Assembly: GCF_022919215.1 (NCBI RefSeq)
Contig: NZ_CP095046.1
Location: 3,214,501-3,278,500, forward strand
Length of the DNA: 64,000 nt
DNA from: Hymenobacter cellulosilyticus
Lineage (GTDB): Bacteria; Bacteroidota; Bacteroidia; Cytophagales; Hymenobacteraceae
Direction of reading: 5' to 3'
Part shown: positions 17,806-42,268 of the stretch, one piece after another
Layout: the number at the start of each line of letters is the position of its first letter
How positions within the stretch are numbered: position 1 is the stretch's first letter
Translations under genes and position numbers: made by a program
The notes under the pieces: model-generated
Databases searched by the model: none
What the model was told of the DNA's origin: nothing
The model's input: only the letters and a program-made list of their open reading frames with translations

Positions 17806-17819
17806 CACAATCGTTTGTG
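17806..17819 (+). promoter_or_regulatory. LacI-type operator copy 1 (CACAATCGTTTGTG)
   Basis: A 14-base palindrome with CACAA/TTGTG arms and central CG, as LacI-family sites have. It is 61 bases upstream of the SusC start. It is the reverse complement of copy 2; the centres are 27 bases apart. Confidence 0.75.
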
Positions 17820-17832
17820 AAATCATTTTACG

Positions 17833-17846
17833 CACAAACGATTGTG
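17833..17846 (+). promoter_or_regulatory. LacI-type operator copy 2 (CACAAACGATTGTG)
   Basis: Same 14-base palindrome, 34 bases before the SusC start. Together with copy 1 it makes a larger perfect inverted repeat (ACACAATCGTTTGTG / CACAAACGATTGTGT). A dimer pair or tetramer could occupy both. Confidence 0.75.
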
Positions 17847-17880
17847 TTAACACCTCTCCAATTCCCACAATTTTTTTTCT

Positions 17881-20800
17881 ATGAAAAAGTCAGTACCCAA
17901 AATGGGTCGGATTACGCTTCCGGCTTTGCTCTGCTGCCTACCCCTGCAGTCTGCCTTAGCCGACGTGACCAGGGTTGATGCCAGTATCGAGCGGGCAACG
18001 TCTTCCGCTCTGCAGGATATCAGCATCAGTGGCCGCGTCGTTGACGCGACTGGGGCCGGTTTGCCCGGCGTGACCGTGCTGGTGAAAGGCACTTCTACCG
18101 GTACCTCCTCTAACGCCGATGGTACCTTTTTGATTACGGCTCCCACTGGCAGCGTGCTGGTGTTCAGCTATGTAGGCTACGTGCGCAGGGAAATAACCGT
18201 AACTGACGCCATGAAGACGCTGGAAGTTGCCATGGCCGAGGACATGACTGCCCTGAGCGAAGTAGTGGTGGTGGGCTACCTGACAGAAAACCGCCAGAAT
18301 CTGAGTAGTTCGGTGAGTAGCTTGGACGTGGCACAGGCCACCAAAGCTCCCGTGGCTACGGCTACCCAGGCGCTACAGGGCCGTTTGCCCGGCGTGCAGG
18401 TCACCGGCTCGGGCGGCCCCGGTGACGCGCCGGTTATCAATATCCGCGGCATCGGTACGCTTGGCAATGCCAGCAGCGCGCCGCTGTACGTAATTGACGG
18501 CCTCTGGACCGACAATATCCGCGACCTGAACCCCAATGACATAGAAAGCCTAAACGTGCTGAAGGATGCTTCCTCAACGGCCGTATATGGCTCCCGGGGA
18601 GCCAACGGGGTAGTGCAGATTACCACCAAAAAAGGCCGGGCCGGCGCGCCCAGCATCAGTTTTAATGCGTATCGGGGCGTAGACCAGATCTATAAGCGCT
18701 ACAACCTGACCAATGCCAGCGAATGGGCCGACCGTGCCGTGCAGGCCTACGCCAATGCCAAAATAGATCCGCTGAGTGCCGGCCAGAACAGCCTGGCCGG
18801 GGCCGTGAAAGGCCCCGGCGGAGCCTTTAACCCCAACGTGGATACGGACTGGCAGAAAGAGTTTTTCCAGACCGGCACGCTTGAAGACTACAACGTGTCG
18901 TTTTCGGGCGGCTCGGTGGGCGAAAAGAATGCCACGAACTTCCTGATTTCGGGGAGTATTTTCACCAAGAAGGCATCGTGAAAGGCCCCGACTTCAAGCG
19001 CTACAGCCTGCGTCTGAACTCGGGCCTAACCCGCGGCCGGTTTAAGTTTCAGGAGAACGTGCAGCTTACTCACCTCGACGTGACGCTGCTCAACGGCGCC
19101 CCGTTTATCGATGTGCTGATCATGATTCCGACCATTCCGGTGTATGACCCGGCTAATAAAGGCGGCTTCGGGTCAGGCTCACCTACCATTAACACATTTG
19201 CTACCAACCCGGTGGGGCTCAGGAGCTGCTGCGCCGCACCCAGTCGGACAACCGCCTAGCGGGCAACGTGAGCACCGATTTCTCCATCTTCGACTTTCTG
19301 ACCTACCGGCTGAATGTGGCCCTGGACGGGCATACCTACAGCAACGCCGATGCACAGAAAGTGGGCATCATCCGTCAGAACAGCGAAATTTCTACCGCCT
19401 CGCTGAATGAGTTTCTGGGCTACGACCTGTTTTTGCTGGGCGAAAACACCCTGAACTTCAATAAGCGCTTCGGCAACCACAACCTCAACGCGCTGGGCGG
19501 CTACTCCGAGCAAAGCTTCCGGTCGCACAACGTCCAGGGCGGTACCACCGGCTTCACGTCTTCGCCCCAGTACTACTTTCAGCTGGGCGCCGGCCCCGAC
19601 AAGGGCGTTATTGACGGTTCCAGCTTCATTTACACCAAGCGCTCCTTCTTTGCCCAGGCCAGCTACGACTACAACAACCGCTACCTGGTGACGGTGAGCG
19701 GCCGGCGCGACGGCTCGTCGCGCTTTACCAAGGCCAACCGCTGGGGCAACTTCGGAGCGGCTTCGCTGGGCTGGCGCATCAGTGAGGAAAGCTTCTTCAA
19801 GGGCGCGCTGCCCCAAGTCAACAACCTGAAGCTGCGCGCCAGCTACGGCTCGAACGGCAACGACGCGCTGGGTGGCCCGTTTGGCGGTGCCTACCTGCCG
19901 TATGCGGTGATTGGTCAAAACGTGAACTACGTAATAGGCACCGGTCAGGGCATCGTGAATGGCGCGGCGCAGCTGGCGCTGCCCAGCCCCGATATCCGCT
20001 GGGAAGAGCGCTATACCAAGGACCTGGGCCTGGACGTGAGCGTGCTCAGCAACCGCCTTACGATGTCGGCCGACTACTACATTTCGCAGACCCGCAACGC
20101 CCTGGCCCCCGTGCAGGTAGCTACCTACCTCGGCCACTTCGGCCAGGACCTGTTCCAGAATGCTGGCGACATCGAGAATAAAGGCTTTGAGCTGGCTTTG
20201 GGCTACCACGACACCAAGAAGGACTTCACCTACGGGGCCGACTTTACCCTGACGACCATCAAAAACAAGCTGACGGCCGTGCCGGTGCAAGGCCAGTCGT
20301 TCAACGGCGCCGACCTGACCCGCTCGGAAGTAGGCTCGTCGCTGGGCGAGTTCTACCTGATTCAGTTCGACGGAATTTTCCAATCGGATGACGAGGCAGC
20401 TAACTACAAGAACTCGAAAGGCGTCCGGATTCAGCCCAACGCCTCGGCCGGCGACGTGCGCTACAAAGACCTCAACGACGACGGCAAGATTGACAACGCC
20501 GACCGCACGTACGTGGGGCAGGCCATTCCGAATCTGCAGATGGGCCTCAACCTGAATGCAGCCTACAAAGGATTTGACCTGGCCATTTTCCTGAACTCGG
20601 TGAGCGGCAACAAGGTCTATAACCAGGCCCGGCGCGACCTGGAAGGCTACCTCGGCCCCAACAACTACAACGCCGACGTGACGCCCTGGACGCCGGAGAA
20701 CCGCTCCAACACCACGCCACGCCTGCTGCAGGGTGGGGGAGCCGGCGCGCTGGGCGAAGCCGCCGCTTCCAATGCCCGCTTCAACACCACGCGCTGGCTG

Positions 20801-21049
20801 GAAGACGGCTCCTACATCCGGCTGCGCAACGTGCAGCTGGGCTATACCATCCCCAAGAGCCTGACCGGCAAAGTACCCAGCCTGGGCAGCGTACGGGTGT
20901 ATATAACGGGTCGTAACCTGTTCACCATCACCGATTACACCGGCTTCGACCCCGAAGTAACCGGTACCGGCTTCTACAGCCGTGGCGTCGACGTGAGTGC
21001 CTATCCCAACGTGCGCAGTGTCATTGGCGGCCTGCAGGTGAACTTCTAA
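17881..21049 (+). CDS. SusC/RagA-family TonB-linked outer-membrane protein (two frameshifts)
   Basis: If repaired this is a 1,056-aa SusC-type importer of oligosaccharides, working with the SusD lipoprotein encoded next. It has a signal peptide (LPALLCCLPLQSALA), a carboxypeptidase-like N-domain (GLPGVTVLVKGTSTGTSSNA), a TonB box/plug start (ALSEVVVVGYLTENRQNLSS), 'GRLPGVQVTGSGGPGDAPVI' and 'IESLNVLKDASSTAVYGSRG'. A 22-strand barrel ends SVIGGLQVNF. The literal frame breaks at 18981 and 19259. One extra G at GG 18972-18973 gives TKKGIVKGPDF, and one at GGGG 19214-19217 gives NPVGAQELLRRT. Two added bases make 3,171 = 1,057 codons. The operators upstream imply arabinose-responsive control. Confidence 0.9.
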
Positions 21050-21116: not shown

Positions 21117-22673
21117 ATGAAAGTAAATAAGATAGCAACCCTGCTGCTGGCAGGAAGCCTTTTTGCCGCCTCGGGCTGCAAAAAAGACTTGCTGGACCAA
21201 GCCAACCCCAACGCTCCGACGACGGACCAGTTCTGGAAAACTCAGGACGACGCCACCAAGGGCATTTATTCCTGCTACTCCGGTTTGCAGCAGTTTGCCT
21301 GCTACTACCGCAGCTTCCACTTTATGGCTCACCGCTCCGATGAGTCGTACAGCCAGAGCCCGTTTGTGGAGCTGGCCAACTTTACGCGCTTCATCACGCC
21401 GGACAACAACTTCTTCATTTCGTCTTTTGCCTGGAACGACTATTACCGCACGATTTACCGCACCAACCAGGTAATCACCCACGTGCCCGATATCCAGATG
21501 AACGAGGGGCTGCGCAAGCAGATCGTGGCCGAAGCCCGCTTTATCCGGGCCCTGTCGTATTTCGACCTGACGTACTTCTTCGGCAACGTGCCCCTGATTC
21601 TGGTGGAGCCCGTGGTAACGACCCGGGCGCCCCAGGCCACCCAGGCCCAGACCGAGGAGCAACTCATCATCGACCTGCAGGCCGCTATTCCCGACCTGCC
21701 CCTGTCGTACTCCGATGCCGAGAAAGGCCGGGTGACGAAAGGCGCCGCGCAGGCGTTATTGGCCAAGGTGTATATGCAGCAGCGTAAGTGGTCGGAAGCC
21801 TCGGCGCTGCTAGCCCAGGTGATTAGCTCGGGGCAGTACGATATTGTGCCCAGCTACCTCGACAACTTCACCGAAGCCAACGAAAACAACCGCGAGTCGG
21901 TATTTGAGGTACAGTTTACCAACCTGAACAACACCCGCCTGGAGCTGGGCCAGGGGCAAGACCGAGCCTCCTCGGCCGAAACCCACGACCGACCCAACTT
22001 CTTCGGACCTCCCGGCCCTACGTATGCCGACGTGCAGCCCCGGCGCTGGCTGCTGGATGAGTACAAGGACTCGACCGTTGCCTTTGCTCCCGGCAGCACC
22101 ACCAAGCACCTAATTGACCCGCGTCGCGACATCAGCATCATTCATGCCGGCAACCCTGACCAGTTCTATGGCAAGACCTTTGGCGAATGGAACTGGAACC
22201 CGGATCAGCAGTACTGGCGCAAGTACCTCAATGACCGGACCCGCACGGCACCCGGCCAGCAGAATGAGAACTTCTCCTCGGGCATCAACCACCGCGTGAT
22301 TCGGTTTGCCGACGTGCTGCTGATGCAGGCCGAGGCCTTGATCGAACTCAACCAGACGAGCACGGCCGTGCCGCTCATCAACCGGGTGCGCCAGCGGGCT
22401 TCCGTCAACCTGGCCCCGCTTACCGGCACCTATAGCCGGGAGCAGATGCGCCAGATTATCCGCAGCGAAAGAGCAAAGGAGCTGGCTGGTGAAGGCACCC
22501 GCTGGTTCGACATTCTGCGCTGGGGCCTGATGGACAACCAGACCGGCATTGAAGAACTCAAAACCCGGGACGCGGACTTTGTCAACTTCCGCCTGGGCGT
22601 GTCGAAGCTGCTGCCCATCCCGCAGCGCGACATCGACATTGACCCCAACATGCGGCAGAACCCCGGCTACTAA
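21117..22673 (+). CDS. SusD/RagB-family nutrient-binding lipoprotein
   Basis: The 518-aa surface lipoprotein caps the SusC channel and binds the glycan before import. The lipobox is LFAASGC with Cys21, followed by the typical 'KKDLLDQANPNAPTTDQFWK'. TPR-like helices follow, with 'GLRKQIVAEARFIRALSYFD' and 'LTYFFGNVPLIL'. The SusD C-terminal region includes 'VIRFADVLLMQAEALIEL', 'RSERAKELAGEGTRWFDILR' and 'LLPIPQRDIDIDPNMRQNPG'. The ATG at 21117 lies 67 bases after SusC, so the two are one transcript. No frameshift is seen. The ligand is inferred to be arabino-oligosaccharides from the enzymes downstream. Confidence 0.93.
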   Translation: MKVNKIATLLLAGSLFAASGCKKDLLDQANPNAPTTDQFWKTQDDATKGIYSCYSGLQQFACYYRSFHFMAHRSDESYSQSPFVELANFTRFITPDNNFFISSFAWNDYYRTIYRTNQVITHVPDIQMNEGLRKQIVAEARFIRALSYFDLTYFFGNVPLILVEPVVTTRAPQATQAQTEEQLIIDLQAAIPDLPLSYSDAEKGRVTKGAAQALLAKVYMQQRKWSEASALLAQVISSGQYDIVPSYLDNFTEANENNRESVFEVQFTNLNNTRLELGQGQDRASSAETHDRPNFFGPPGPTYADVQPRRWLLDEYKDSTVAFAPGSTTKHLIDPRRDISIIHAGNPDQFYGKTFGEWNWNPDQQYWRKYLNDRTRTAPGQQNENFSSGINHRVIRFADVLLMQAEALIELNQTSTAVPLINRVRQRASVNLAPLTGTYSREQMRQIIRSERAKELAGEGTRWFDILRWGLMDNQTGIEELKTRDADFVNFRLGVSKLLPIPQRDIDIDPNMRQNPGY

Positions 22674-22795: not shown

Positions 22796-23860
22796 ATGAA
22801 AAGGAACACTCTGAGAATCGGGCGGCTGCTGCCGGTGCTGCTGGCCGTAGCGCTGGGCTGTAAAAGCGGGAGCGAAACCGCCGGCCCCGCCCCGCCGCCC
22901 ACTGCGGCCAATACCTTCACCAACCCGCTGCTGCCCTCCGGGCCCGACCCATGGGTATACCAGAAGGACGGTTTTTACTACTACCTGCACACGACCAACA
23001 CCAACCTGCGCATCTGGAAAACGGCGAAGATGTCGGACCTGGGTGCCACTTCCAGCGTGCTGGCCTGGGCGCCAGTGGCCGGCAGCCCGGCTTCCAGCAA
23101 CCTCTGGGCCCCGGAGTTGCACTTTCTGGACGGCAAGTGGTACATCTACTACTCGGCCGGCCCGGCTGGCCCCGATTTGGGCCGACAACGGACCTGGGTG
23201 CTGGAAAATGCTGCCGCCGACCCCACCACCGGTACCTGGGTAGATAAAGGCAAGCTTTTCAGCCCCGGCGCCGACTTTTGGGCCATCGACGGCACGGTGC
23301 TGGAGCAAAACGGCCGGCGCTACTTTGTCTGGTCGGGCCACAACGGCACGGATGCTATTCAGCGCATCTACATTTCGGCCATGAGCAACCCCTGGACGCT
23401 GAGCGGGCCGCGGGTAGAGCTTTCCCACCCCGAGTACAACTGGGAAAACGTAGGCCCGCCCTACGTGAATGAAGGCCCCGAAATCCTGAAGCACGGCGAC
23501 AAAACCTTTCTGGTGTACTCGGCCAGCTTCTGCGGCACCGACCAGTACGCGCTAGGCATGCTCACGGCCGCCGCCACTGCCGACCCGCTGCTGCCCGTCT
23601 CCTGGCAGAAGTCGACCAAGCCGGTGTTTGTCCAGAACCCCGCCGGCCGGGCCTACGCCACGGGGCACAACTCCTTCTTCAAGTCGAAAGACGGGCAGGA
23701 GGACTGGATTATCTACCACGCCAACTCCAACTCCAATGAGGGTTGCGTGGAAAAGCGCAATCCGCGCATGCAAAAGTTTACCTGGAATCCCGATGGTACG
23801 CCGAACTTCGGCACCCCAGTAGCCATCAACACGCCCATTGCCAAGCCCGGCGGCGAATAG
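22796..23860 (+). CDS. GH43 arabinofuranosidase/arabinosidase, lipoprotein
   Basis: The 354-aa protein has a lipobox (LLAVALGC, Cys22) and a five-bladed GH43 propeller. The three catalytic acids are visible: base Asp in SGPDPWVYQ, pKa-modulating Asp in WAIDGTVLE, and acid Glu in VNEGPEILK. 'FTNPLLPSGPDPWVYQKDGF' and 'NNLWAPELHFLDGKWYIYYS'-like blade motifs resemble the GH43 exo-arabinanase group (family 26-like). That group releases arabinose from alpha-1,5-arabino-oligosaccharides. Cell-surface or periplasmic attachment fits trimming of oligosaccharides close to SusC/D. Subfamily is inferred from motif impressions only. Confidence 0.88.
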   Translation: MKRNTLRIGRLLPVLLAVALGCKSGSETAGPAPPPTAANTFTNPLLPSGPDPWVYQKDGFYYYLHTTNTNLRIWKTAKMSDLGATSSVLAWAPVAGSPASSNLWAPELHFLDGKWYIYYSAGPAGPDLGRQRTWVLENAAADPTTGTWVDKGKLFSPGADFWAIDGTVLEQNGRRYFVWSGHNGTDAIQRIYISAMSNPWTLSGPRVELSHPEYNWENVGPPYVNEGPEILKHGDKTFLVYSASFCGTDQYALGMLTAAATADPLLPVSWQKSTKPVFVQNPAGRAYATGHNSFFKSKDGQEDWIIYHANSNSNEGCVEKRNPRMQKFTWNPDGTPNFGTPVAINTPIAKPGGE

Positions 23861-23904: not shown

Positions 23905-25599
23905 ATGCTTTCATTACTACTCCGTTTGCGCCGTCTCGGGTCGGGCTGCGGCCTCATCCTGCTGGTCCTGCTGCTCACCTTGCTGGCCCGGCCCCAGGCC
24001 CAGGCCCTGCAAGGGTTTCCCGGGGCCCACGACCCTTCCACCATTGTCAAGGAAGGCAACAAATACTGGATTTTCACCACCGGTCGGGGCATTTATAACA
24101 TGTATTCGACGGATCTGGTAAACTGGACGCCCAGCCCCCGGGCCGTGTTCGTGAACAACGCCTACCCCAGCTGGATCAACACCAAGGTGCCCAACTTCCA
24201 GGGTGATTTCTGGGCGCCCGAGTGCGTGTTTATGAACGGGAAATACTACCTGTACTACTCGTGCTCCACGTTTGGCTCCAAGGTGTCGGCCATCGGGCTG
24301 GCGACCAACGTTACCCTGGACCCCACCAGTCCCAACTACCGCTGGGAAGACCAAGGCGAAGTAGTTTCCTCTAACGCGTCGAGTTCGGCCAACGCCATTG
24401 ATCCGGCCATTTTTCAGGACACTAATGGTGACGTTTGGCTGACGTACGGCTCATTTTTTGGCGGCTTGCGCAGCTTACAGCTTAATGCCACCACCGGCAA
24501 GCCTCTGAACTCTACTTCGTACGCGCTGGCCAACGGCGACGTGGAAGCGGCATTTTTGACCAAGCAAGGCAGTTTCTACTACCTGTTTATCAACCGCGGC
24601 AGCTGCTGCAACGGCATCAACAGCACCTACCACATCCGCGTTGGGCGCGCCTCGTCGCCCACCGGGCCCTTCCTCGACCAGAACGGCACCAGCCTGAACA
24701 GCAACGGCGGTACGTTGGTGCTGGGCAGCGCCGGCCGCTTTATCGGGCCCGGACACGCGGGCATCTTTACCGAGGGCGGCGTCAACTACTTTTCCCACCA
24801 TTATTACGATGGCGAAGAAAACGGCGCGCCCAAGCTCGGCCTGGCCCGCCTTACGTGGAATGCGGCTGGCTGGCCCGTAGTCAGCCGCGACTGGGTGGCG
24901 GCCGGGCGCTACGAAATCAAGAATCAGAACAGCAACCTGATCTGGGATGCCTGGGGCTGCACCGGCGCGGCGGGCCAGATGATTGCCCAGGGCACCCCGG
25001 CCGGCCTCGACTGTCAGCGCTGGGACTTTACGGCGCTGGGTAACGGCGAGTATAAAATCACCAACGCCCTGGGGGGCCTGGCCGCCAACGTAGCGGGCTG
25101 CTCGGCCGCGGCTGGGGCCAAGCTACAGCTTGCGGCCTACACCGGGGCCACTTGCCAACGTTTCCGCATCGACCGGGCCAACGATGGTACGCTGGTGCTG
25201 GCCTCGGCCAACGGCAACCGGGTAGTGGAAGTGCCCAACGCGGCCACTACCGCCGGGCAGCAGCTGGGCTTGTGGGATTACAACGGCTGCCCCTGTCAAC
25301 GCTGGAGCCTGACTGCGGTAAGCGGTACGCTGGCTACCGCCAAGCGGCAACTGCCGGGCGTAGCTGTGTATCCAGTTCCGGCCTCGCGCACAGGCTTTAC
25401 CGTTGAGCTCAGCGCCTCCTCCGGTACCGGAACCACGCAGGTCAGCGTAGCCGACGTGGCCGGGCGGCGGCTTTACCAGGGTTCCTTTGGCTCCCAACAG
25501 CAGGTGTTACAGGTGGCAGTGGCGCTACCGGCCGGCTTGTATGTGGTGCAAGTGGAACGTGGCGGGCACGTGAGTACCCAAAAAATCACGGTTCAGTAG
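23905..25599 (+). CDS. GH43 endo-arabinanase with ricin-type lectin domain and type IX sorting tail
   Basis: The 564-aa secreted enzyme has a signal peptide to about residue 36, then a GH43 domain (residues about 40-330). The base Asp is in GAHDPSTIV, the second Asp in NAIDPAIFQ and the acid Glu in GDVEAAFL. 'DFWAPECVFMNGKYYLYYS' is the blade motif typical of endo-1,5-alpha-L-arabinanases. A ricin B/CBM13-like domain follows (about 335-480; 'WDAWGCTGAAGQMIAQG' and repeated 'CQRW/CQRF'). The last 80 residues form a type A sorting domain (VAVYPVPAS ... LPAGLYVVQVE), so export by the type IX system is expected. It is a close paralogue of the gene at 33354. It starts 44 bases after the previous GH43 stop, in the same transcript. 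Confidence 0.9.
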   Translation: MLSLLLRLRRLGSGCGLILLVLLLTLLARPQAQALQGFPGAHDPSTIVKEGNKYWIFTTGRGIYNMYSTDLVNWTPSPRAVFVNNAYPSWINTKVPNFQGDFWAPECVFMNGKYYLYYSCSTFGSKVSAIGLATNVTLDPTSPNYRWEDQGEVVSSNASSSANAIDPAIFQDTNGDVWLTYGSFFGGLRSLQLNATTGKPLNSTSYALANGDVEAAFLTKQGSFYYLFINRGSCCNGINSTYHIRVGRASSPTGPFLDQNGTSLNSNGGTLVLGSAGRFIGPGHAGIFTEGGVNYFSHHYYDGEENGAPKLGLARLTWNAAGWPVVSRDWVAAGRYEIKNQNSNLIWDAWGCTGAAGQMIAQGTPAGLDCQRWDFTALGNGEYKITNALGGLAANVAGCSAAAGAKLQLAAYTGATCQRFRIDRANDGTLVLASANGNRVVEVPNAATTAGQQLGLWDYNGCPCQRWSLTAVSGTLATAKRQLPGVAVYPVPASRTGFTVELSASSGTGTTQVSVADVAGRRLYQGSFGSQQQVLQVAVALPAGLYVVQVERGGHVSTQKITVQ

Positions 25600-25892
25600 C
25601 AATTATAGACTGGCAATGGGTAAAAAGAGCGACTGAAACAGATTACGTAATGCACAAACGATTGTGTAACTCCGGAAGTTTATCTACTTTACGCACCATA
25701 TTGCCGGCTAGGAAAGTAGCTACTACTTATTTTCTGGGTCGAATGATATGCATTAATACCCTGTAATTAAAGAGGATATGCTTGGTTTTGGCCTGCACAA
25801 TCCATTGTTGTTCTTTTTGCTACGGAATGCCTTGCTTATGACTGCTACTAGCGCGGCCTCTTACTTCTTGCAATCCCACCTTTTTTCCGCTC
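25600..25892. other. Control region upstream of the mutarotase-araBDA unit
   Basis: It contains operator copy 3 at 25653-25666. TTG within the operator and TACTTTAC at 25685-25692 are spaced about 20 bases and could be a -33/-7 pair, so the repressor would cover the -33 element. Confidence 0.45.
25653..25666 (+). promoter_or_regulatory. LacI-type operator copy 3 (CACAAACGATTGTG)
   Basis: It is identical in 14 of 14 bases to copy 2. It lies 227 bases before the mutarotase start and about 20 bases upstream of a TACTTTAC element. Confidence 0.75.
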
Positions 25893-27118
25893 ATGACCAA
25901 CGCTAAAAATACTGCCGGCCGATTTCTGGGGAGCGTGGCTGCCATAACCAGTCTGCTGACCCTGGGCGCTTGCAACCAAACCTCTTCCCCGGAACAGGGC
26001 GCGGCCTCTGCCACAACAGCAGCCTCTGACACGACCAGCGCCCAAAACGGAGCTACAGCTGCCATGCCTACATCTGCTTCCTTCGGCAAAACCTCGGACG
26101 GCACCGAGGTGCAGCTCTTTACCCTGACTAACGCCCACGGCCTGCAAGCCACCATCAGCACCTACGGGGCATCGTGACCAGCCTGCTTGTGCCCGACAAA
26201 GCTGGCAAACTCGGCGACATCGTGCTGGGCTTCGACAATGTAAGTGGCTACCAGAGCCCCGAATACCAGAAATCGGGCCCGTACTTCGGGGCCCTGATCG
26301 GGCGCTACGGCAACCGCATTGCTAAGGGCCAGTTTACCCTGGAGGGCAAAACCTACACACTGGCCAAGAACAACGGGCCCAACCACCTGCACGGCGGGCT
26401 CAAGGGCTTCGACAAAGTCATCTGGCAGGCCGAGCCCGGCAGTTCAGCGGCGGGCCAAACGCTGAAGCTGACCTACCAAAGCAAGGACGGGGAAGAAGGC
26501 TACCCAGGCAATTTGACCGTGACGGTGGTCTATACCCTGACCCAAGACGACGCGCTGCAGATCGACTACTCGGCCACCACCGACAAGGCCACGCCCGTCA
26601 ACCTGACCAACCACAGCTACTTCAACCTGAGCGCGGGCCAGCGCCCGGACGTGCTGGCCCACCAGGTCACGCTGCCCGCCGACCGCTACACCGTGGTCGA
26701 TGCCGACCTGATTCCCACCGGCGAGCTGCGGGCGGTGAAGGGTACGGCCTTCGACTTTACCACGGCCCACGCCATCGGTGAGCGGATTGCCCAGGTGCCC
26801 GGCGGCTACGACCACAACTGGGTGCTAAATGCGGCTACTGAGGGGCAACATCCGGCCGCTACGGTCTACGAGCCCACGTCGGGCCGCACGATGCAGGTGA
26901 GCACCACCGAGCCCGGGGTGCAGTTCTACACCGGCAACTTTCTCGACGGTAGCCTGACGGGCAAGGGCGGCCGGGTCTACGGCAAGCACGCGGGCTTCTG
27001 CCTGGAAACCCAGCACTTCCCCGACTCGCCCAACCAGCCTAAGTTCCCCTCCACCACCCTGCAGCCCGGCCAGACCCTGCGCTCCACTACTACCTACCAG
27101 TTTGGCGTGCGTAAGTAG
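25893..27118 (+). CDS. galM: Aldose 1-epimerase (galactose mutarotase), lipoprotein (frameshifted)
   Basis: If repaired this is a 408-aa enzyme that interconverts alpha and beta anomers of aldoses, here probably arabinose released by the glycosidases. The lipobox LLTLGAC (Cys28) and a Ser/Thr/Ala-rich linker precede the GalM fold. Catalytic His is in NLTNHSYFNL and catalytic Glu in FCLETQHFPDSPN; substrate His is in GPNHLHGG. The literal frame stops at 26177. One extra G in the GGGG at 26166-26169 gives TYGGIVTSLLVPDKAG and an open frame to 27118 (1,227 = 409 codons). Extracytoplasmic mutarotases are common in Bacteroidota sugar loci. Confidence 0.87.
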
Positions 27119-29672: not shown

Positions 29673-29802
29673 ACCGGCAAATCTGTGGCAGCAAGTTGCC
29701 GCAGATTGCCGCGCCTAAAACGATTTAACGACTAATCCAACCCATACCCTAGCCGGCGTGGCGCCTTCGCCCAGCGTCAGGTTCTTCCCGGCTCCTTCAC
29801 TC

Positions 29803-33353: not shown

Positions 33354-35117
33354 ATGTTCCATTCTTCTACTGCTGCCCTGGTCTTGCGCCGGGCTACCTT
33401 CCGCTTCCTTGCCGGCCGCCGGCCTGGCTACCTTCTGCTTCTGCTGCTGGCGCTGCTGGGCTTGAGTCCCGCAGCCCGCGCCCTGCAAGGCAATGACAAC
33501 TGCCACGACCCGTCGAGCATCGTCAAGGATGGTAGCAAATACTGGATTTTCACTACCGGCACCGGCATCTACGGCATGTACTCCTCCGACCTGGTGAAGT
33601 GGGAATCGGGGCCGCGGCCGGTGTTTGCGGCCGGCGCCTACCCGAGCTGGATTAAAACCAAAGTGCCCGGCTTCACTGGTGACTTCTGGGCCCCAGAGTG
33701 CGTGTACCGCAACGGCAAGTTTTACCTCTACTACTCCGTATCCACGTTCGGCTCCAGCGTGTCGACCATCGGGCTGGCCACCAACGTAACCCTGGACCCC
33801 ACGAGCCCCAACTATCAGTGGGTGGATCAGGGCGAAGTGGTGTCGAGCGGCTCGGGTAGCGCCTGCAACGCCATTGACCCGGCCGTGGTAACGGACGCCA
33901 GCGGAGGGCTGTGGATGAGCTACGGCTCATTTTTCAAGGGCATCGGCCTGATTAAGCTCGACGCCACCACCGGCAAACGCTCCGGTACGAGCTTTACCTG
34001 GCTGGCCGGCAACGTAGCCGCCGACGGGGTGAGTCGCAGCAACAGCGGCAGCGAGGCGCCCTACATCGTGCGCAACGGCAGCTACTATTACCTGTTTATC
34101 AATAAGGGCGCCTGCTGCAACGGCTCGGCCAGCACCTACTACATCCAGGTGGGCCGCTCCACCAGCATCACCGGGCCTTACGTCGACAAAAACGGCGTGG
34201 ATATGAACCGCAACGGCGGCACTACGCTCATGGCTACCCAGGGCAACTACGTCGGGCCGGGCCACGTGGGGCTGTACCAGGAAAACGGTGCTAACTACTT
34301 CAGCCACCACTACTACGACTCGAACCAGAACGGCCGGGCCCGCCTTAGCGTGGGCAACATGGGCTGGGACGCCGCGGCCTGGCCCTTCCTCACCCGCGAC
34401 TGGCTGGCCACCGGCCGCTACACGCTGCGCAACCAGAGTAGTAACCTCGTCTGGGATGCCTGGGGCTGCACCGGCGCTTCAGGCCAAGCCATTGCCCAGG
34501 GCACCTACAGCGCCGGCCTGGCCTGCCAGCAATGGAATCTGATGCCCGACGGCAACGGCGAGTACAAAATAACCTCGGCCGTAGGCGCGGGCCTCGCGGC
34601 CGACGTGGTTAACAACAGCCCCAGCAACGGTGCCAAATTGCAACTTTACGCCTACAGCGGCATTGCTGGGCAGCGCTTCAAAATCGAGCGGACCAACGTG
34701 GGCAACTACGTTGTGTCGTCGGTGAACGGGGGGCGGGTGGTAGAAGTGCCAGGCTGCGCCACAACGGCCGGCGTGCAGCTGGCTTTGTATGATTATCTGT
34801 CCAACAACTGCCAGAAATGGGGCATAGCCCCGGCTACTGCCGCTCGGCCACTGTCGGCCCAAACAGCTGTGCTCCGCAACGTTTCCGTGTTTCCCAACCC
34901 CGCCGAGCTGGGCCGTTTTGTGGTCAACCTGGGGGAGGAACTCCGCAACACGTCCGTAACTATTACGCTGACTGATACTCAGGGCCGGACGGTCTATACC
35001 CGCGCTAGTTCAGGCACAACAACACTACCCGTGGAAACCGGGTTGCGCACGGGGCTCTACTTACTTCATGTGAGCAGTGCGCAGGGCGGATACAGCCAAA
35101 AAGTAGTGCTACAATAA
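33354..35117 (+). CDS. GH43 endo-arabinanase with ricin-type lectin domain and type IX sorting tail (paralogue)
   Basis: The 587-aa secreted protein has the same architecture as the gene at 23905: signal peptide, then GH43. The catalytic acids are in NCHDPSSIV, NAIDPAVVT and GSEAPYIVR. A ricin/CBM13-like domain (WDAWGCTGASGQAIAQG, then CQQW/CQKW repeats) and a type A sorting tail (VSVFPNPAELGRFVV ... LRTGLYLLHV) follow. The middle acid motif differs from its paralogue (SEAPYI versus VEAAFL), so substrate length or linkage preference may differ. It has an ATG start and no frameshift. It lies alone after the symporter's terminator-like hairpin, so it may have its own promoter. Confidence 0.9.
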   Translation: MFHSSTAALVLRRATFRFLAGRRPGYLLLLLLALLGLSPAARALQGNDNCHDPSSIVKDGSKYWIFTTGTGIYGMYSSDLVKWESGPRPVFAAGAYPSWIKTKVPGFTGDFWAPECVYRNGKFYLYYSVSTFGSSVSTIGLATNVTLDPTSPNYQWVDQGEVVSSGSGSACNAIDPAVVTDASGGLWMSYGSFFKGIGLIKLDATTGKRSGTSFTWLAGNVAADGVSRSNSGSEAPYIVRNGSYYYLFINKGACCNGSASTYYIQVGRSTSITGPYVDKNGVDMNRNGGTTLMATQGNYVGPGHVGLYQENGANYFSHHYYDSNQNGRARLSVGNMGWDAAAWPFLTRDWLATGRYTLRNQSSNLVWDAWGCTGASGQAIAQGTYSAGLACQQWNLMPDGNGEYKITSAVGAGLAADVVNNSPSNGAKLQLYAYSGIAGQRFKIERTNVGNYVVSSVNGGRVVEVPGCATTAGVQLALYDYLSNNCQKWGIAPATAARPLSAQTAVLRNVSVFPNPAELGRFVVNLGEELRNTSVTITLTDTQGRTVYTRASSGTTTLPVETGLRTGLYLLHVSSAQGGYSQKVVLQ

Positions 35118-35579: not shown

Positions 35580-37630
35580 ATGAAAAGCCTCGTTCCTGCT
35601 TTGTTAATGGCCGGTTTGCTAAGCGCGCCGGCCCGGGCCCAAACCCTCAAACGCTCCGACTACCCGATTCAGGCCGTGTCGTTTACCAAGGTCAAGCTGG
35701 CGGATACCTTCTGGCTGCCCCGGCTCAAGACCAACACCGATGTGACCATTCCGGCTTCGTTTCAGCGCTGTGAGGCCACCAATCGGGTCAAGAACTTCGA
35801 AATGGCCGCCGCCCGGCAGGGGAAGTTTGCCACCATCTTTCCCTTCGACGACACCGACATCTACAAAACCATCGAAGGCGCCTCGTACTCGCTCAAGCTC
35901 TATCCCGACGAAGAGCTGGACCAGTACATGGATGAGCTGATTAAGAAGGTGGCCGCAGCCCAGGAGCCCGACGGCTACCTTTACACGGCCCGTACCATCG
36001 ACCCGGCCCACCCGCACAACTGGGCCGGGCCGGAGCGGTGGGTGAAGGAGCGGGAGCTGAGCCACGAGCTCTACAACTCGGGCCACCTCTACGAGGCCGC
36101 CGTGGCCCACTACGAGGCTACCGGCAAGAAAAACCTGCTCACTATTGCCCTCAAGAATGCCGATCTGGTGTGCTCGGTATTCGGGCCGGGCAAGCGGGCC
36201 GTGGCGCCCGGCCACGAAATCGTGGAAATGGGTCTGGTGAAGCTCTACCGCGTCACGGGCAAGCCCGAGTACCTGAGCACCGCCAAGTTTTTCCTCGACC
36301 AGCGGGGACAGTTTAAGGGCTACGACCCCAAAAGCCCCGATGCCTGGCGCAACGGCTCCTACTGGCAGGATCATAAGCTCGTGGTAGACCAGAAAGAAGC
36401 CGAGGGCCACGCCGTGCGGGCCGAATACCTGTACTCGGCCATGGCCGACGTGGCCGCCCTCACCGGCGACCAAAAGCTGCTGGCGGCCGTGGACAGTATC
36501 TGGCAGAACATGGTCAGCAAGAAGCTCTACGTGACCGGCGGTACGGGCGCGGTGCCGGGTGGGGAACGGTTTGGGGGCAATTACGAGCTGCCCAACACCA
36601 CGGCCTACAACGAAACCTGCGCCGCGGTAGCCAACATCTACTGGAACCAGCGCATGTTCCAGCTCCACGGCGAGGCCAAATACGTGGACGTGCTGGAAAA
36701 AGTGCTCTACAACGGCCTGATTTCGGGCGTGGGGCTGGATGGCAAGTCCTTCTTTTACAGCAACGCCATGCAGGTGAAAAACAGCACGAGCTTCCCCCAG
36801 ACCGAGCCCCAGCGCGCCGGCTGGTTCGACTGCTCCTGTTGCCCCACCAACCTGGCCCGCCTCATGCCGTCTTTGCCCGGCTACGTGTATGCCCAAAACG
36901 GCCGCGACGTGTACGCCAACCTGTTTATCAGCGGCACCACCAATTTGCTGGTCAACCAGAAGCCCGTGCGCATCACACAGCAGAACAACTACCCCTGGCA
37001 GGGCGACCTGAAATTCACCGTGAATTCCGCGGCTACTACCGACTTCAATCTGCTGGTGCGCCTGCCCGGCTGGGCCCGCGGTGAGGCCGTGCCGTCCGAT
37101 TTGTACCGCTTTGCTACCCCTACTGAGCCGAAAATCAACATCCGCGTCAACGGGCAGCCGGTGGCGTATACCACCCGTAACGGCTACGCAGTGCTGGCCC
37201 GCAAGTGGCGCAAAAACGACGTGGTAGAAGTGCAGCTGCCCATGGACGTGCGCCAGGTGGTAGCCAACCCAAGGTGCAGGACGACCTGGGCAAAGTGGCC
37301 CTGCAGCGTGGACCGGTAATGTACTGTGCCGAGTGGAAAGACAACGGCGGCAAGGCCAGCAACCTGATTGTGCCCGCTGTTACCACGTTCACGGCCCGCT
37401 TTCAGCCCCAGGTGCTCAACGGCATCATGCAGCTCCAGGCCACCGTGCCCGCTGTGCAGCTCGACGCGGCCAACACTAGCATCAGCACCACGCGCCAGAC
37501 CATGACGGCCATTCCCTACTACGCCTGGGCCAACCGCGGCAAGGGCGAAATGACCGTCTGGTTTCCCCAGCAGCTCACCGACGTAGACCTGATTTCTCGC
37601 CAGCCCCAGGAAGTAACGGTAGGCAAGTAA
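35580..37630 (+). CDS. GH127 beta-L-arabinofuranosidase (frameshifted)
   Basis: If repaired this is a 683-aa exported enzyme that removes beta-L-arabinofuranose. A signal peptide (LLMAGLLSAPARAQ) precedes the GH127 (alpha/alpha)6 barrel. The zinc and catalytic residues are visible: Glu and Cys in NETCAAVANIYWNQRMF, and the paired Cys in FDCSCCPTNLARL (nucleophile Cys and Zn ligand). 'RRARQGKFATIF'-type and 'EPDGYLYTARTID' motifs agree. The literal frame ends at 37319 in junk. One extra C in CCC 37268-37270 gives VVANPKVQDDLGKVALQRGP and an open frame to 37630 (2,052 = 684 codons). It suggests the locus handles arabinan or glycoproteins with beta-linked arabinose too. Confidence 0.88.
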
Positions 37631-37712: not shown

Positions 37713-38707
37713 TCAGGGCTGTACCACCGGCCAGCCGGCGGCGTCCCAGGTAAGCTTTTCAATCCGGAGCTTGGAGTGGCCTTTGTCGGCCGCGTCGTAG
37801 CCGTGAAACACGAGGTAATCCTGATTGTCGAAAGTATACACCGAGTTGTGGCCCAGGCCAAACCAGTTTTTGTCGCCGACCAGCACTGGGGTGCCGCCGC
37901 CCTGGTCCAGGGCCACGCCGGCCCGGTCCACAAATGGGCCCGTCACGGATTTGGAGCGGCCCACCATGATTTTGTAAGTGCTCTGGGGGCCGCGGCAGCA
38001 GTAGTCGAACGAGGTGAACAGGTAATAGAAGCCGTTTTTGCGGAAGATAAACGGGGCTTCGATGGCGCCGTCGCCGGGCAGGGAGTCGTTCAGTTTGGGG
38101 TCCCGGGGCGGCGGGCCAGGGTGCGCCACTGCTCGGGCTGGGCCGGGGCTTTCAGGTCGGGCCGCAGCTTTACCAGCTTGATGCCCTCCCAAAACGAGCC
38201 GAAGCTAAGCCAGGGCGTGCCGGCCTCGTCCCGAATCAGGTTGGGGTCAATGGCGTTCCACATATCCCGCCCCGGCACCGACTGAATTACCCGCCCGTGG
38301 TCGATCCACTTATAGTCGGGCGACTTCGGGTTCAGGGTTTTATTCGTGGCCAGCCCGATGCAGGAGGTGTTTTTGCCAAAGGCGGAAATCGAGTAAAACA
38401 GCGAGTACACGCCGTTGTGAAACGAAATGTCGGGGGCCCAGATGTGGTTGTTCTGGAAGCCCGGCACGGCCTGTACTGCCCAGGCCGGGGCCTGGGCAAA
38501 TACCGGCTGCTCCCGCGTCCAGTTCAGCCGGTCCTTCGACGACCACACCGCAATGCCCGGCCCGGTCCCGAACATGTAGTACGTGCCGTCCTGCCGGATC
38601 AGCACCGGGTCGTGGGCCCCAATCAGCGGCGGCGCGGTCTGGGCCTGGGCCCCAAGCACGGTGAGCAGTAAAACCAGGCACCAGAGCTGGCTAAGAGAGA
38701 AGCGCAT
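37713..38707 (-). CDS. GH43 arabinanase/arabinosidase, secreted (frameshifted)
   Basis: If repaired this is a 331-aa exported GH43 enzyme. A signal peptide (CLVLLLTVLGAQAQ) precedes the propeller. The catalytic acids are in IGAHDPVLI, NAIDPNLIR and AIEAPFIFR, in family order. 'NNHIWAPDISFHNGVYSLFY' is typical of endo-alpha-1,5-L-arabinanases. The literal frame from the ATG at 38707 ends near 38090. One extra base in the plus-strand GGGG at 38105-38108 gives RRPRDPKLNDSLPGDGAIEA and an open frame to 37713 (996 = 332 codons). The shift falls just before the third catalytic residue, so unrepaired it would be inactive. It lies 127 bases downstream of the next GH43. Confidence 0.87.
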
Positions 38708-38834
38708 ACGGCTGGGGTGGGCGGGAAGTGACTTGCCCAAGCGCTGAGCCCGGGCAAGTCCGTTGAGAAATCTTCGTGGAAAGCATGCTCGTCAGCTCGA
38801 AGCGTCGGTCTGAAAAAGGTGGTAAAAACCGGCT

Positions 38835-39817
38835 CTACTTCACGGGCTGCACGCCTTCGGTGGTCATTACCACGCGCTTCATCGTGCCGTCCTTGTTGTA
38901 TTCCAGCTTGTCGATGCAGACGGAGCGGCGGAAAGAGCTCCCGTCGGTGGGGATGCTGCCGTTGTGGTAGATGAAGTAGCTCTGGCCCTTAAAGTCGATG
39001 ATGGCCTGGTGGTTGGTATTGGAATTGCCGGCCACCTCGTTTAAAATGCCCTTGAACTCCCACGGCCCTCGATGCTGCGGCTCATGGCGTAGGCAATTTT
39101 CTCGGGAAACTGGTAGGCGTAGCTCAGGTAATACCAGTTGCCGCGCTTGTGCACCCACGGCGCCTCCGTGAACTTGGGCAGCGTGGTCACCTTGTTGATG
39201 GGCCCGTCCAGTTCGGTCATATTGGGCTTGAGCTTGGCCCAGTAGCAAATCGTGTTGCCCCAGTACAGGTAGGCCTGGCCTTTCTCGTCGACAATCACCG
39301 TGGGGTCAATATCGTCCCAGCTGATTTTGGCCTCGGTGGTCATGTCGTTGGTAATCAAGGCCGAGCCCCGGGCGTCTTTAAACGGACCAGTGGGGCTGTC
39401 GGACACCGCCACGCCAATGGCTTTGCCGGGAATGGAACCGTGCTCCACGGCGGCATACCAGTAAAACTTACCGTTCCGCTCTATCACCTGCGAGGCCCAG
39501 GCGTCGTCCTTGGCCCAGGCAAAAGCCTTGACGTTGAGCGGGGAAGGGTGCTCTTTCCAGGTCACCATGTCCTGGGAGGAGTAGCAAAGCCACTCGTGCA
39601 TCACGTAGCGCTCCTGCCGGGCCGGAGCTTCATCGTGGCCAGCGTACAGGTACACCGTGCCCTTGTGCACCAGCGCGGCCGGGTCGGCCGTGTATTTGTC
39701 TTTGATAATCGGGTTGCCGGCCACGGGTTCGGGCCGGGCCTGGGCCTGCGCCGCCGTTGGCAGCAGTGCCGGGGTCAGCAGCAGGCAAATCAGGCGGGCT
39801 AAGGTGTTGATTGTCAT
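38835..39817 (-). CDS. GH43 glycosidase (arabinofuranosidase/xylosidase-type), secreted (frameshifted)
   Basis: If repaired this is a 327-aa exported GH43. A signal peptide (LLLTPALLPTAAQAQ) precedes 'NPIIKDKYTADPAALVHKGT' (base Asp), 'WDDIDPTVIVDEKGQAYLYW' (second Asp) and 'PKFTEAPWVHKRGNWYYLSY' (acid Glu). This is the motif set of GH43 enzymes acting on arabinofuranosyl side chains of arabinan or arabinoxylan. The ATG at 39817 is preferred to a TTG at 39826. The literal frame breaks near 39050. One extra base at plus-strand GG 39064-39065 gives SRSIEGPWEFKGILNEVAGN and an open frame to 38835 (984 = 328 codons). It starts 12 bases after the GH51 stop, so the two are one operon. Confidence 0.87.
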
Positions 39818-39829
39818 GACTGCCAAGGC

Positions 39830-41941
39830 TTAGCGCTTGCCGGGAATGCGCAGCACCGTGAATGAATTCGGGGCCAGCGTGTAAGTCAGGTTGGCCGAAC
39901 TTACCTTGAACGACTCGTCCTTGGGAGCCACGTTCAGGGGCTGGTCCAGGGTATTCACGGCGTTCAGGTCATTGCTAGCCAGCACAGTAGCCTTGCCGGT
40001 TTTGCCCAGCTTTTTCACGCCCTGCAGGTTGATGGCCACGGGCCGGGCCTCAGGGGAGTAGTTGATCAGCTTCACCACAATTTCCCCGGTTTTGTCGTCG
40101 GCCACGGCGCTGCTGAACAGGTTGTCCTGCCCGTTTTGGCCGTTATCGGCGCGCTGCACCGGCAGCATGGTGGTGCCGGGGTTGGTGGAGTACATTTTCT
40201 GCACGTAGTAGTTGGGCGTCCCGTAAGCGCGCAGGTTGTCGAACCAAATCATGTCCGGCGTCCACTGCCAGGCGTCGACGTGGGCGAACAGCGGGGCGTA
40301 GGAGGCCATAATCACTTTGTCGGCGTTGCGCTCCAGCCCCGTCATAAAGGCCGCTTCCGAAAGGGCGCAGTCCCAGCTGTTTTTGTTGTCGGGGCTAGCA
40401 ATGCCCACGCTCTGGGCCGCGTACTCGCCGGCAAAAATCTTGGAGCCGGTGGTGGGGTAGTTGTCGTAGCGGCCCACGTTTTTGCGGAACCACTCCGGAC
40501 TGGCGTAGTAGTGCTCATCAATCACCTCGGCCTTCAGTTCGCGCAGGCGCTTGGTGGCTTTGTCAAACAAGTCCCCGTCGGGGCTGGGGCCTACGCTGGA
40601 CACGATGTTGATGCCCGGATACTTGGCTTTCAGGGCCTTAGCAAACGGCTCGTAGCGCTCCAGGTACTGCGGGCCCCACTGCTCGTTGCCGATACCGATA
40701 TACTTCAGGTCGAAAGGCTTCGGGTGGCCCATGGCCACGCGCTTGGCGCCCCAGGGGCTGCTGGCCGGACCGTTGGCAAATTCCACCAGGTCCAGGGCGT
40801 CCTGAATAAAGGTTTCCAGCGTGGGGTCGTCATCGGCGTGATTATGGGCCGGCACCTCATTCACGCTCGGTCCGCCGGCAGCCGTGGTTATGGGGGCCAG
40901 CTCCGAGGAGTTGAACTGGCAGGCCATGCCCACGTTCAGAATCGGCACGGGCTCGGCCCCAATGTCCTCGGAAAGCTGGAAATACTCGAAAAAGCCCAGG
41001 CCAAACGACTGATAATAGTCCGGGGTGGAGCGGTGGCGGAACTCCATGTTCCAGCGGTTCACCAGCGGCACGCGGGAGGCCACGTCGCCGATGGTTTCCT
41101 TCCACTGGTAGCGCTCCGTCAGGGTGCGGCCCTCCACGATGCAGCCGCCGGGAAAGCGCAGAAAACCCGGGTTCATGTCCTTGAGCAGCTGCACCAGGTC
41201 GGTGCGCAGGCCGTTTTCGCGCTTGTTCCAGGTGTCTTTCGGAAACAGCGTTACCACGTCCATGTCCAGCGTGCCGGCCCCGTCCAGGGTCAGCTTGAGC
41301 CGGGCCTTGGCCGCCGTCCCCGCCGACTTGAGAACCACGGTATACTTCTTCCAGTCGGCGGTGAGGCCCGTAATCTTGGTTTGGGCCAGCACCCGGCCCG
41401 AGGGGCTTACTTCCGGGCCGGCACCGCGGCCACCTTCCTCTTCCAGGGTCACGTTCAGGCCGCTCACACTGCCCAGGCCGCGGCGCAGGTACACGGAGAA
41501 AGTATATTCCGCATTCTGCTTGATACCCATGCCCCGGAACCCTTCGTTGATCAGGCCCGCGTCGGGGCTGGCCGTTTTGGCCGTGAGGCGCACAAAGTGG
41601 TTGTTGGTGGCGCTAATCGGCTTTTCGCTGCTGACCGTGTAGGTTTCCAGGGCCGCTGCCCCGCGAATAGCGTTCCAGCCAATAAAGTGTTGCCCGGGAA
41701 TCTCAAACGACTTGTTCTTGACCAGCTCGGGGTAGAGGCCCCCGTCGGCGGCGAAGTTGATGTCTTCGAAAAACAGGCCGTACATCGTTTTGGCGATGGG
41801 TGCTCCGGGCTTGTTGACCTGCACGGTAATGGTATTAGCCGCCGTCGGCTTGGTTTGGGCTAGGGCCGGAGCCAGGCTCAGCGTGCACAGGGCCGCGCTG
41901 CTAGCTAACTGCACAAATCGGGTGGGGGAAAAGGTGGGCAT
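39830..41941 (-). CDS. GH51 alpha-L-arabinofuranosidase with carbohydrate-binding insert, secreted
   Basis: The 703-aa exported enzyme removes terminal alpha-L-arabinofuranose from arabinan and related polymers. A signal peptide (SAALCTLSLAPALAQ) is followed by the N-terminal 'IAKTMYGLFFEDINFAADGG' and a CBM4/9-like stretch of about 130 residues ('YTFSVYLRRGL'). The GH51 barrel follows, with acid/base Glu in IGIGNEQWGPQYLE and nucleophile Glu in IFAGEYAAQS. A C-terminal beta domain ends TLAPNSFTVLRIPG. It has an ATG start and no frameshift. It is first in a leftward operon GH51-GH43-GH43, with an operator 124 bases upstream. Confidence 0.94.
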   Translation of the reverse strand: MPTFSPTRFVQLASSAALCTLSLAPALAQTKPTAANTITVQVNKPGAPIAKTMYGLFFEDINFAADGGLYPELVKNKSFEIPGQHFIGWNAIRGAAALETYTVSSEKPISATNNHFVRLTAKTASPDAGLINEGFRGMGIKQNAEYTFSVYLRRGLGSVSGLNVTLEEEGGRGAGPEVSPSGRVLAQTKITGLTADWKKYTVVLKSAGTAAKARLKLTLDGAGTLDMDVVTLFPKDTWNKRENGLRTDLVQLLKDMNPGFLRFPGGCIVEGRTLTERYQWKETIGDVASRVPLVNRWNMEFRHRSTPDYYQSFGLGFFEYFQLSEDIGAEPVPILNVGMACQFNSSELAPITTAAGGPSVNEVPAHNHADDDPTLETFIQDALDLVEFANGPASSPWGAKRVAMGHPKPFDLKYIGIGNEQWGPQYLERYEPFAKALKAKYPGINIVSSVGPSPDGDLFDKATKRLRELKAEVIDEHYYASPEWFRKNVGRYDNYPTTGSKIFAGEYAAQSVGIASPDNKNSWDCALSEAAFMTGLERNADKVIMASYAPLFAHVDAWQWTPDMIWFDNLRAYGTPNYYVQKMYSTNPGTTMLPVQRADNGQNGQDNLFSSAVADDKTGEIVVKLINYSPEARPVAINLQGVKKLGKTGKATVLASNDLNAVNTLDQPLNVAPKDESFKVSSANLTYTLAPNSFTVLRIPGKR

Positions 41942-42064
41942 AGAAGAAGATGAAGTGAGCGAAAGGAATTCCGGGCCCTGAAAAGGCCAGATCAGAAGGA
42001 CATAGAAAAAGCCGGTTTTGCCAAGCCAGCCGCGCAGGTTAGGTGAGGACGACTAAACAACTGG

Positions 42065-42078
42065 CACAATCGATTGTG
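42065..42078 (+). promoter_or_regulatory. LacI-type operator copy 4 (CACAATCGATTGTG)
   Basis: A perfect 14-base palindrome, the most symmetrical of the five. It lies 124 bases upstream of GH51 on the minus strand and 206 bases upstream of the regulator. Confidence 0.75.
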
Positions 42079-42218
42079 TAAAGTAAAAAGAAAAACGCAA
42101 CATGCTCGTCTTTGCCGCTAAAATTTACTGGTACTGCTGGGGTTTGTCTTCGCTCAGCCTTGAGTTGATAAGTCGTTTTACCAACCCAAAATTATGGAAT
42201 AGTACCCGCTAAGGCCGG

Positions 42219-42254
42219 TTTTGTATTGCCGGATACTATATAATACTATCTTTA
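42219..42254 (+). promoter_or_regulatory. Candidate promoter of the LacI-type regulator
   Basis: TTG at 42226-42228 and TATCTTTA at 42247-42254 are separated by 18 bases, close to the Bacteroidota TTTG / TAnnTTTG arrangement. A TTTTG at 42219-42223 is an alternative -33. Operator copy 5 starts at the next base, so bound repressor would cover the transcription start. Confidence 0.45.
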
Positions 42255-42268
42255 CACAAAGCATTGTG
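42255..42268 (+). promoter_or_regulatory. LacI-type operator copy 5 (CACAAAGCATTGTG)
   Basis: The CACAA/TTGTG arms are conserved; the centre is GC instead of CG. It is 15 bases before the regulator's ATG and directly after its -7-like element, which suggests autoregulation. Confidence 0.65.

Follow-up and report, generated by a model that had tools for sequence, protein, structure and literature searches.

Arabinose genes and arabinan polysaccharide utilization locus (PUL) genes of Bacteroides are controlled by AraR, a protein of the NrtR family (PMC4666351), and hybrid two-component systems act beside it (PMC3878776). In other phyla, LacI-type arabinose repressors are known (PMC10766802, PMC13056197), and a review counts AraR and XylR, which repress genes for arabinanases and xylanases, among the members of the LacI family (PMC10766802). 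The LacI label has also been put on a gene in xylan or pectin PULs of Flavobacteria, where the passages concerned show no operators (PMC5306329, PMC4891872). Here we describe an arabinan locus of Hymenobacter cellulosilyticus, contained in a 64-kb stretch of contig NZ_CP095046.1 (positions 3,214,501 to 3,278,500; hereafter the window), in which a LacI-family protein encoded at 42284-43387 is very probably the local repressor of arabinan and L-arabinose use, by the mechanism set out below.

The 14-bp palindromic pattern CACAANNNNTTGTG has five exact matches in the window, at 17806, 17833, 25653, 42065 and 42255, precisely where an earlier note on this DNA had placed them. Chance expectation is 0.08, and none of 100 dinucleotide shuffles reached five. 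As the note had also said, four of the centres contain CG (TCGT, ACGA, ACGA and TCGA) and the fifth, in front of the regulator gene itself (the self-site), contains GC (AGCA). No exact copy was found before the NCS1 transporter gene, which comes after the lacI gene, or elsewhere in the 64 kb scanned, in which the haem and Pao operons named by the note were not annotated. In the whole genome of 6.09 Mb (G000), six copies exist, of which five are inside 24.5 kb of the locus. The reversed control pattern also occurs six times genome-wide, so that what distinguishes the motif is its clustering and its CG form. Of this form, CACAAWCGWTTGTG, the genome contains four copies, every one at the arabinan locus, against none for its reversed control, and the same search found no extra CG site beyond the locus. 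A wider regulon in this genome was rejected because a search allowing up to two mismatches gave no excess (30 matches versus 38 for the control). The sixth exact copy (C1:1081208, L203) lacks CG and has no matches to proteins of the locus nearby, and is treated as chance; nothing supports a one-mismatch site without CG at 25796 as an operator.

The regulator has an N-terminal LacI helix-turn-helix (PF00356, 42.2 bits, cut-off 27), followed by a periplasmic-binding-protein-like effector domain (PF13377 and PF00532, both above cut-off), and falls below the cut-off of every NCBIfam model listed. Its closest named relatives are from Hymenobacter species, and the nearest solved structures by sequence are CcpA and PurR.

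The distribution of protein and motif was first compared by searching each in 59 genomes, 37 of the same genus and 22 of other genera. CACAAWCGWTTGTG is present in 24 of the 37 and in none of the 22. In a tree of 114 LacI rows, the proteins of exactly those 24 motif genomes fall into one clade (69 rows, SH-aLRT 100). The best LacI hits of ten of the remaining 13 genus genomes are placed outside this clade; the other three (G004, G016 and G027) are outside the tree sample, and their best LacI hits are weak (E 4e-4 to 2e-69). The survey was then made over 204 genomes of the family, where CACAAWCGWTTGTG occurs in 93 of 93 genomes with a high-scoring orthologue, at 366 sites, and in four of the 111 genomes outside the orthologue set, one copy each (4 sites in total). 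The reversed control gave a single hit in each of six of the 204. In genus g27, five of eight genomes have the orthologue, and the motif is found in those same five. The orthologue set consists of proteins with at least 505 bits, plus G005 and G020 by tree; this threshold was set after the motif counts were visible, and one genome, G149 (492 bits), fell below it. The LacI-type arabinan regulon with mapped sites that the note had proposed is thus supported over the family: the motif accompanies the orthologous regulator in all 93 score-assigned genomes (93 of 94 once G149 is counted), and it stands before orthologous arabinan genes. The finding that the note had named as refuting its proposal, a motif lacking upstream of orthologous loci, was therefore not made. 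Among the 69 further, score-assigned orthologue genomes, gene context was read in G070, G218 and G223.

Several observations weigh against this reading, and they are given here and in the following paragraphs with the alternatives on which they bear. Only 24 of the 93 orthologue genome handles were placed by tree, and the rest by score, as were two genus genomes without an orthologue (G114 and G134). The LacI protein of G149 is nearest to a basal orthologue, yet this genome has no site and no araA. With 70% identity to the basal orthologue of G032, and 63% at most to the paralogue rows printed, it is probably an orthologue without the motif, which makes the count 93 of 94. Just before the G149 gene (L304, ~9940-9960) lies CACAATATTTGTG, with a three-base spacer, perhaps a changed operator.

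It might also be supposed that the motif is not a protein site at all and follows the arabinan locus as a result of hitchhiking conservation. Indeed, motif, araA and regulator travel together, and the co-occurrence cannot be fully separated from possession of the arabinan locus, araA being present in 23 of the 24 orthologue genomes (all but G029) and in none of the 13 others. However, when nine genus genomes without the motif were tested for araA, it was present in G114 and G134. In both, galM-araBDA is 75-90% identical, while no orthologue is found by score and no site genome-wide; the link between regulator and pathway is therefore broken there. The sites also recur in altered gene orders and at unlinked sugar genes, and the flanks upstream of the self-site diverge (mean column identity 0.46 in 17 sequences). 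The column identity of 1.0 at the self-site itself holds by construction, since only sequences with the exact site were anchored, and the unselected count is that of the 80-loci survey described below. Hitchhiking can therefore scarcely be the explanation.

Of the 24 orthologue genomes, 16 have an exact site directly before galM (G000, G003, G005, G006, G009, G010, G011, G013, G014, G018, G019, G020, G023, G024, G026 and G035); it opens a longer operon in G021, G033 and G034, has one mismatch in G032, and in G029 stands before a galM without araBDA. For this count, galM of G015 lies beyond the fetched stretch, and G022 and G028 were unread there. Overall, sites precede SusC, galM-araBDA, GH51, GH43 and GH127 genes, and elsewhere transketolase. 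Among the 32 unlinked loci fetched (L176-L182, L184-L199, L202, L223, L224, L226-L228 and L231-L233), a glycan or sugar gene adjoins 30, targets being assigned by position only. The neighbours include SusC, GH43, GH127 and galM, with GH51-type arabinofuranosidases at four more sites (L190, L199, L223 and L231), and further GH42 (L194, L196), GH53 with GH10 (L224), GH31 (L187), a fucosidase (L226), a galactokinase (L192) and a PfkB kinase (L198). At L176 and L232 no target gene was identified beside the site, the frames of L176 being merely listed. The motif is found before transketolase in G026 and G032 (L180, L185) and before a transaldolase-phosphoglucose isomerase fusion in G018 (L177). Such positions fit pentose breakdown, and in some species the regulon may reach into the pentose phosphate pathway. 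Less expected are an alanine dehydrogenase, a fucosidase, GH10 and a glutaminase-like gene at some unlinked sites, which count on the other side; on the far side of such sites lie alanine dehydrogenase (L187, L226), the glutaminase-like gene (L188) and a ribD-like gene (L193).

Another question is which LacI protein reads the palindromes. A paralogous LacI, or several LacI regulators sharing the sites, could do so in place of mainly this protein, and the genome of the window has ten matches to the LacI domain. Some CACAAWCGWTTGTG sites in G026, G023 and G029 adjoin paralogous LacI genes, whose products are 52-59% identical, so that cross-binding by paralogues is possible; this too speaks against the main reading. 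Still, the 13 genus genomes without the orthologue, ten of them with a best LacI hit placed in the tree outside the clade, have no site, and the orthologue's own gene is also preceded by a site. The recognition helices differ as well. T31 and T32 are present in 81 of 81 orthologue rows, in which some genomes appear twice (by handle and by named record), and S31 is found in 44 of the 47 rows of the paralogue set as printed, to which two orthologue loci (L163 and L164) had wrongly been assigned; these are its two T31 rows. Leu69 is invariant in 128 of 128 LacI rows; we take it to be the hinge leucine, which inserts at the central step in solved LacI structures. Moreover, several paralogues, including L241 of this genome, have a different palindrome of their own upstream, GTGCAAACGTTTGCAC-like, and many of the 32 paralogue loci examined have no palindrome there. 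Reading mainly by a paralogue, or by several LacI regulators in common, is thus very unlikely. The GTGCAAACGTTTGCAC-like palindrome is itself conserved 127-185 bp before paralogous LacI genes (L241, L149, L153, L155, L157, L158 and L159).

The mode of action is suggested by the position of the sites relative to promoter elements. The -7 element of this phylum has the consensus TAnnTTTG, and TTACTTTA and TATCTTTA resemble it, as predicted elements. TTACTTTA touches the GH51 site in 10 of 10 named relatives printed (an eleventh, L138, has no CG site there), and, of the 17 named loci with a self-site, 11 have TATCTTTA directly before it. The galM site is ~17-18 bp upstream of a CTACTTTAC-like element and would thus cover the -33 region; NTACTTTAC or CTACTTTGG is found at similar distance in nine of the 13 sequences printed, that of the window included. 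Because the sites occupy blocking positions at GH51, lacI and galM, we infer that the regulator is a repressor. Counting against this are the unmapped state of the predicted -7 and -33 elements, the galM element being present in those nine sequences only, and the SusC promoter, which has no clear fit to either element. If the regulator instead activated from these sites, or acted both ways, the galM site would suit it, as a position upstream of a -7-like element is also open to activators. The lacI and GH51 sites, however, come directly after the -7-like element, and the majority of LacI regulators bind without ligand according to PMC4052901, so that activation is highly improbable.

Before SusC, the sites form a pair in nine of 11 genomes compared, 25-28 bp apart (one member has a single mismatch in G026), and only one site is present in G034 and G022. 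The note had suggested cooperative binding from the 27-base spacing in the window. In a LacI survey, spacing peaks lie at 13, 22 and 32 bp, the last two being taken as cooperative (PMC4052901). The pair, at ~2.4-2.7 helical turns, falls between these two peaks, about half a turn off, and cooperativity was therefore rejected as unsupported. A loop between the sites at 42065 and 42255 was considered as well. Of 15 named loci that have both a GH51 site and a self-site, 11 space them by 179-191 bp and the other four by 167 and 268-272 bp; these distances are often near whole helical turns, with too few independent changes to judge.

The self-site deserves separate attention. A first survey covered the DNA ahead of the regulator gene at 80 named loci. 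Within the tree subclade to which this genome belongs (25 rows), the self-site is present in 20, exactly as CACAAAGCATTGTG in 17 and with one change in three, always GC-centred. Family-wide, CACAAWGCWTTGTG has 36 copies in 33 of the 204 genomes. In 24 genomes, CACAAAGCATTGTG lies 27-29 bp before lacI (distances by hand), always in the same orientation, at 25 gene copies, G104 having two regulator genes. The other 11 CACAAWGCWTTGTG copies are elsewhere, seven of them in genus g26, whose genomes are without orthologue by score; a second self-site-like copy in G146 (C1:2604327) has no locus-protein match within its 3 kb. The DNA retrieved, which was selected by motif or gene and is no random sample, contains 196 distinct exact sites, of which 158 are centred ACGA, TCGA or ACGT. 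The CG-centred operators are even palindromes of the LacI/GalR form, and the self-site departs from it. Such a CG centre is found in 1173 of 1251 LacI regulators with even palindromes, and 72% of the LacI factors surveyed are autoregulated (PMC4052901). The AGCA centre is thus a deviation conserved in sequence and orientation. The note had supposed that this site may bind more weakly; the deviation may reflect weaker autoregulation or a constraint from the start site. A tentative explanation, somewhat more doubtful than not, is that the self-site is a deliberately off-consensus operator, in which the non-palindromic AGCA is tolerated and held in one orientation because it overlaps the regulator's own transcript start, and from which autoregulation would be weaker and set in later than at the CG sites. 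If this is true, one regulator runs two classes of operator that differ solely in their central four bases. In any case, the conservation of a GC centre at the self-site amounts to an experiment by nature on the central step in operators of the LacI type. Related forms were seen in passing. Just before the gene of the basal orthologue in G032 (L024), TTTACGCAAAGCGTTGCGTAA is arranged like the self-site, with CACAA altered to CGCAA by paired changes. A one-mismatch form, CATAAACGATTGTG or CATAATCGATTGTG, recurs upstream of the regulator in L105, L108, L112, L123, L124 and others, between the regulator and, where seen (G003, G035 and G026), a GH43 gene, and is perhaps a weaker operator class.

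Taken together, the following mechanism is proposed. The LacI protein would bind as a dimer to ACACAAWCGWTTGTGT palindromes lying across promoter elements: near the start of GH51 and of lacI, across the likely -33 of galM-araBDA, and at two positions before SusC. Release of the repressor would come from an intracellular breakdown product of arabinan, with L-arabinose or a short arabino-oligosaccharide as the likeliest; this choice of inducer comes from the content of the regulon. Release would then open SusCD uptake, degradation by GH43, GH51 and GH127 enzymes, and araBDA catabolism together, while the regulator may limit its own expression via the deviant GC-centred site. What the sequences show directly is where the sites lie, that they are conserved and that they occur with this regulator; binding, the sign of the regulation, the inducer and the direction of the regulator swap discussed below are deductions from this.

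The features of the locus are collected in Table 1. Pfam confirms the gene calls of the note (SusC, SusD, GH43s, galM, araB, araD, araA, GH127, GH51 and LacI). For SusC, galM and the two GH43 genes behind GH51, the identity stands and the intact reading frames do not, these genes being frame-broken in the assembly. In eight of nine relatives examined, SusC is one unbroken frame of 1054-1084 codons (G010 is the exception), and the breaks in SusC, galM and the two GH43 genes (37713-39826) likely come from sequencing error. The start of galM, read by eye, is ~225 bp past the site at 25653.

Table 1. Operators, candidate promoter elements and genes of the arabinan locus (window coordinates).
Feature	Position	Strand	Evidence or remark
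Operator 1 before SusC, CACAATCGTTTGTG	17806..17819	+	Exact match, comparison of 11 genomes
Operator 2 before SusC, CACAAACGATTGTG, 27 bp from operator 1	17833..17846	+	Exact match
SusC-like TonB-dependent receptor	17881..21049	+	Frame-broken between 18981 and 19268 in this assembly
SusD-like lipoprotein	21117..22673	+	PF07980, PF14322
GH43 glycoside hydrolase	22796..23860	+	PF04616
GH43 with ricin-type lectin domain and Por secretion tail	23905..25599	+	Pfam
Operator before galM-araBDA, CACAAACGATTGTG	25653..25666	+	Exact match, relatives
Candidate -7 element CTACTTTAC, 17 bp after galM operator	25684..25692	+	Sequence comparison
galM aldose 1-epimerase	25893..27118	+	Pfam; frame break near 26165
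araB ribulokinase	27175..28974	+	Pfam, NCBIfam
araD ribulose-5-phosphate 4-epimerase	28971..29672	+	Pfam, NCBIfam
araA arabinose isomerase	29758..31293	+	Pfam, NCBIfam
Sodium:solute symporter, possible arabinose importer	31742..33187	+	PF00474
GH43 with ricin-type lectin domain	33354..35117	+	Pfam
GH127 beta-L-arabinofuranosidase	35580..37319	+	Pfam
GH43, frame-broken	37713..38707 (pieces 38090-38707, 37713-38192)	-	PF04616 in both pieces
GH43, frame-broken	38835..39826 (pieces 39041-39826, 38835-39248)	-	PF04616; second piece below cut-off
GH51-type alpha-L-arabinofuranosidase	39830..41941	-	Pfam
Operator before GH51, CACAATCGATTGTG	42065..42078	-	Directly after -7-like TTACTTTA in GH51 direction
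-7-like element TATCTTTA, predicted regulator promoter	42247..42254	+	Touches self-site
Self-site CACAAAGCATTGTG, GC centre	42255..42268	+	Exact match, relatives
LacI-family regulator, proposed arabinan/arabinose repressor	42284..43387	+	Pfam, tree

How does this locus compare with other araBDA loci? An NrtR-type protein adjoins araBDA in G046, G054 and G184, three of the four araBDA loci read outside Hymenobacter and g27; G184 is a member of the window's own family. This is also the arrangement known in Bacteroides, and a regulator swap is probable: in Hymenobacter and g27 the LacI regulator would stand where some related lineages have an NrtR-type one beside araBDA. A swap with the content of the regulon kept is the simplest account, presumably in the direction from NrtR to LacI. 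A point against it is that no NrtR was found on the 6.4-kb ara contig of G052, nor near ara in G114 and G134. In the genome of the window, the sole match to PF21906 is at C1:1776095, ~1.4 Mb from the window. The data thus suggest a change of regulator for one pathway within one family: in genus g26, of which one genome was read, araBDA has NrtR beside it, and in Hymenobacter and g27 the regulator is LacI. In G114 and G134 the pathway is present, and both the orthologue and its sites are missing.

The earlier note had contrasted the locus with hybrid two-component systems and with an AraR labelled GntR-type. LacI is not foreign to the sugar metabolism of Bacteroides, as four uronate regulators there are LacI proteins (PMC3878776), and the GntR label has to be replaced, Bacteroides AraR being NrtR-type (PMC4666351). 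In the window itself, the neighbouring hybrid kinase at 13102-16575 has PAS, HisKA, HATPase and receiver domains in Pfam and shows no DNA-binding domain of the AraC type in that scan; this negative covers the locus, no genome-wide search for hybrid two-component systems having been made.

Searches of the open-access literature found no account of an arabinan regulon under LacI control in Bacteroidota, and the LacI survey covered this phylum by one taxonomic group (PMC4052901). The regulon described here is new, though of a well-known kind; its points of interest are the proposed regulator swap and the conserved off-consensus self-site, and it offers a testable regulator-operator pair for a whole PUL-type regulon, of which none was found in print for the genus in that literature. 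Among known proteins, CcpA and PurR share the domain layout of the regulator, but are global or purine regulators. Both bind even palindromes with a CG centre. A LacI-type AraR of Corynebacterium glutamicum ATCC 31831 is reportedly, from the title of a 2014 paper by Kuge, an L-arabinose-responsive repressor of L-arabinose utilization genes; it is LacI-family like the regulator of the window, but from another phylum, and is likened to it by title alone. KdgR, UxaR, UxmR and UxuR of Bacteroides are LacI-family proteins of the same phylum with local sugar regulons, but for uronates (PMC3878776, PMC4052901). In content, the nearest likeness is to BtAraR of Bacteroides thetaiotaomicron (BT0354), where, as proposed here, L-arabinose catabolism, GH51, GH43 and SusCD are in one regulon, and where L-arabinose is a negative effector (PMC4666351). 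BtAraR combines a Nudix-like effector domain with the NrtR winged helix (PMC4666351), whereas the regulator of the window has LacI domains in their place.

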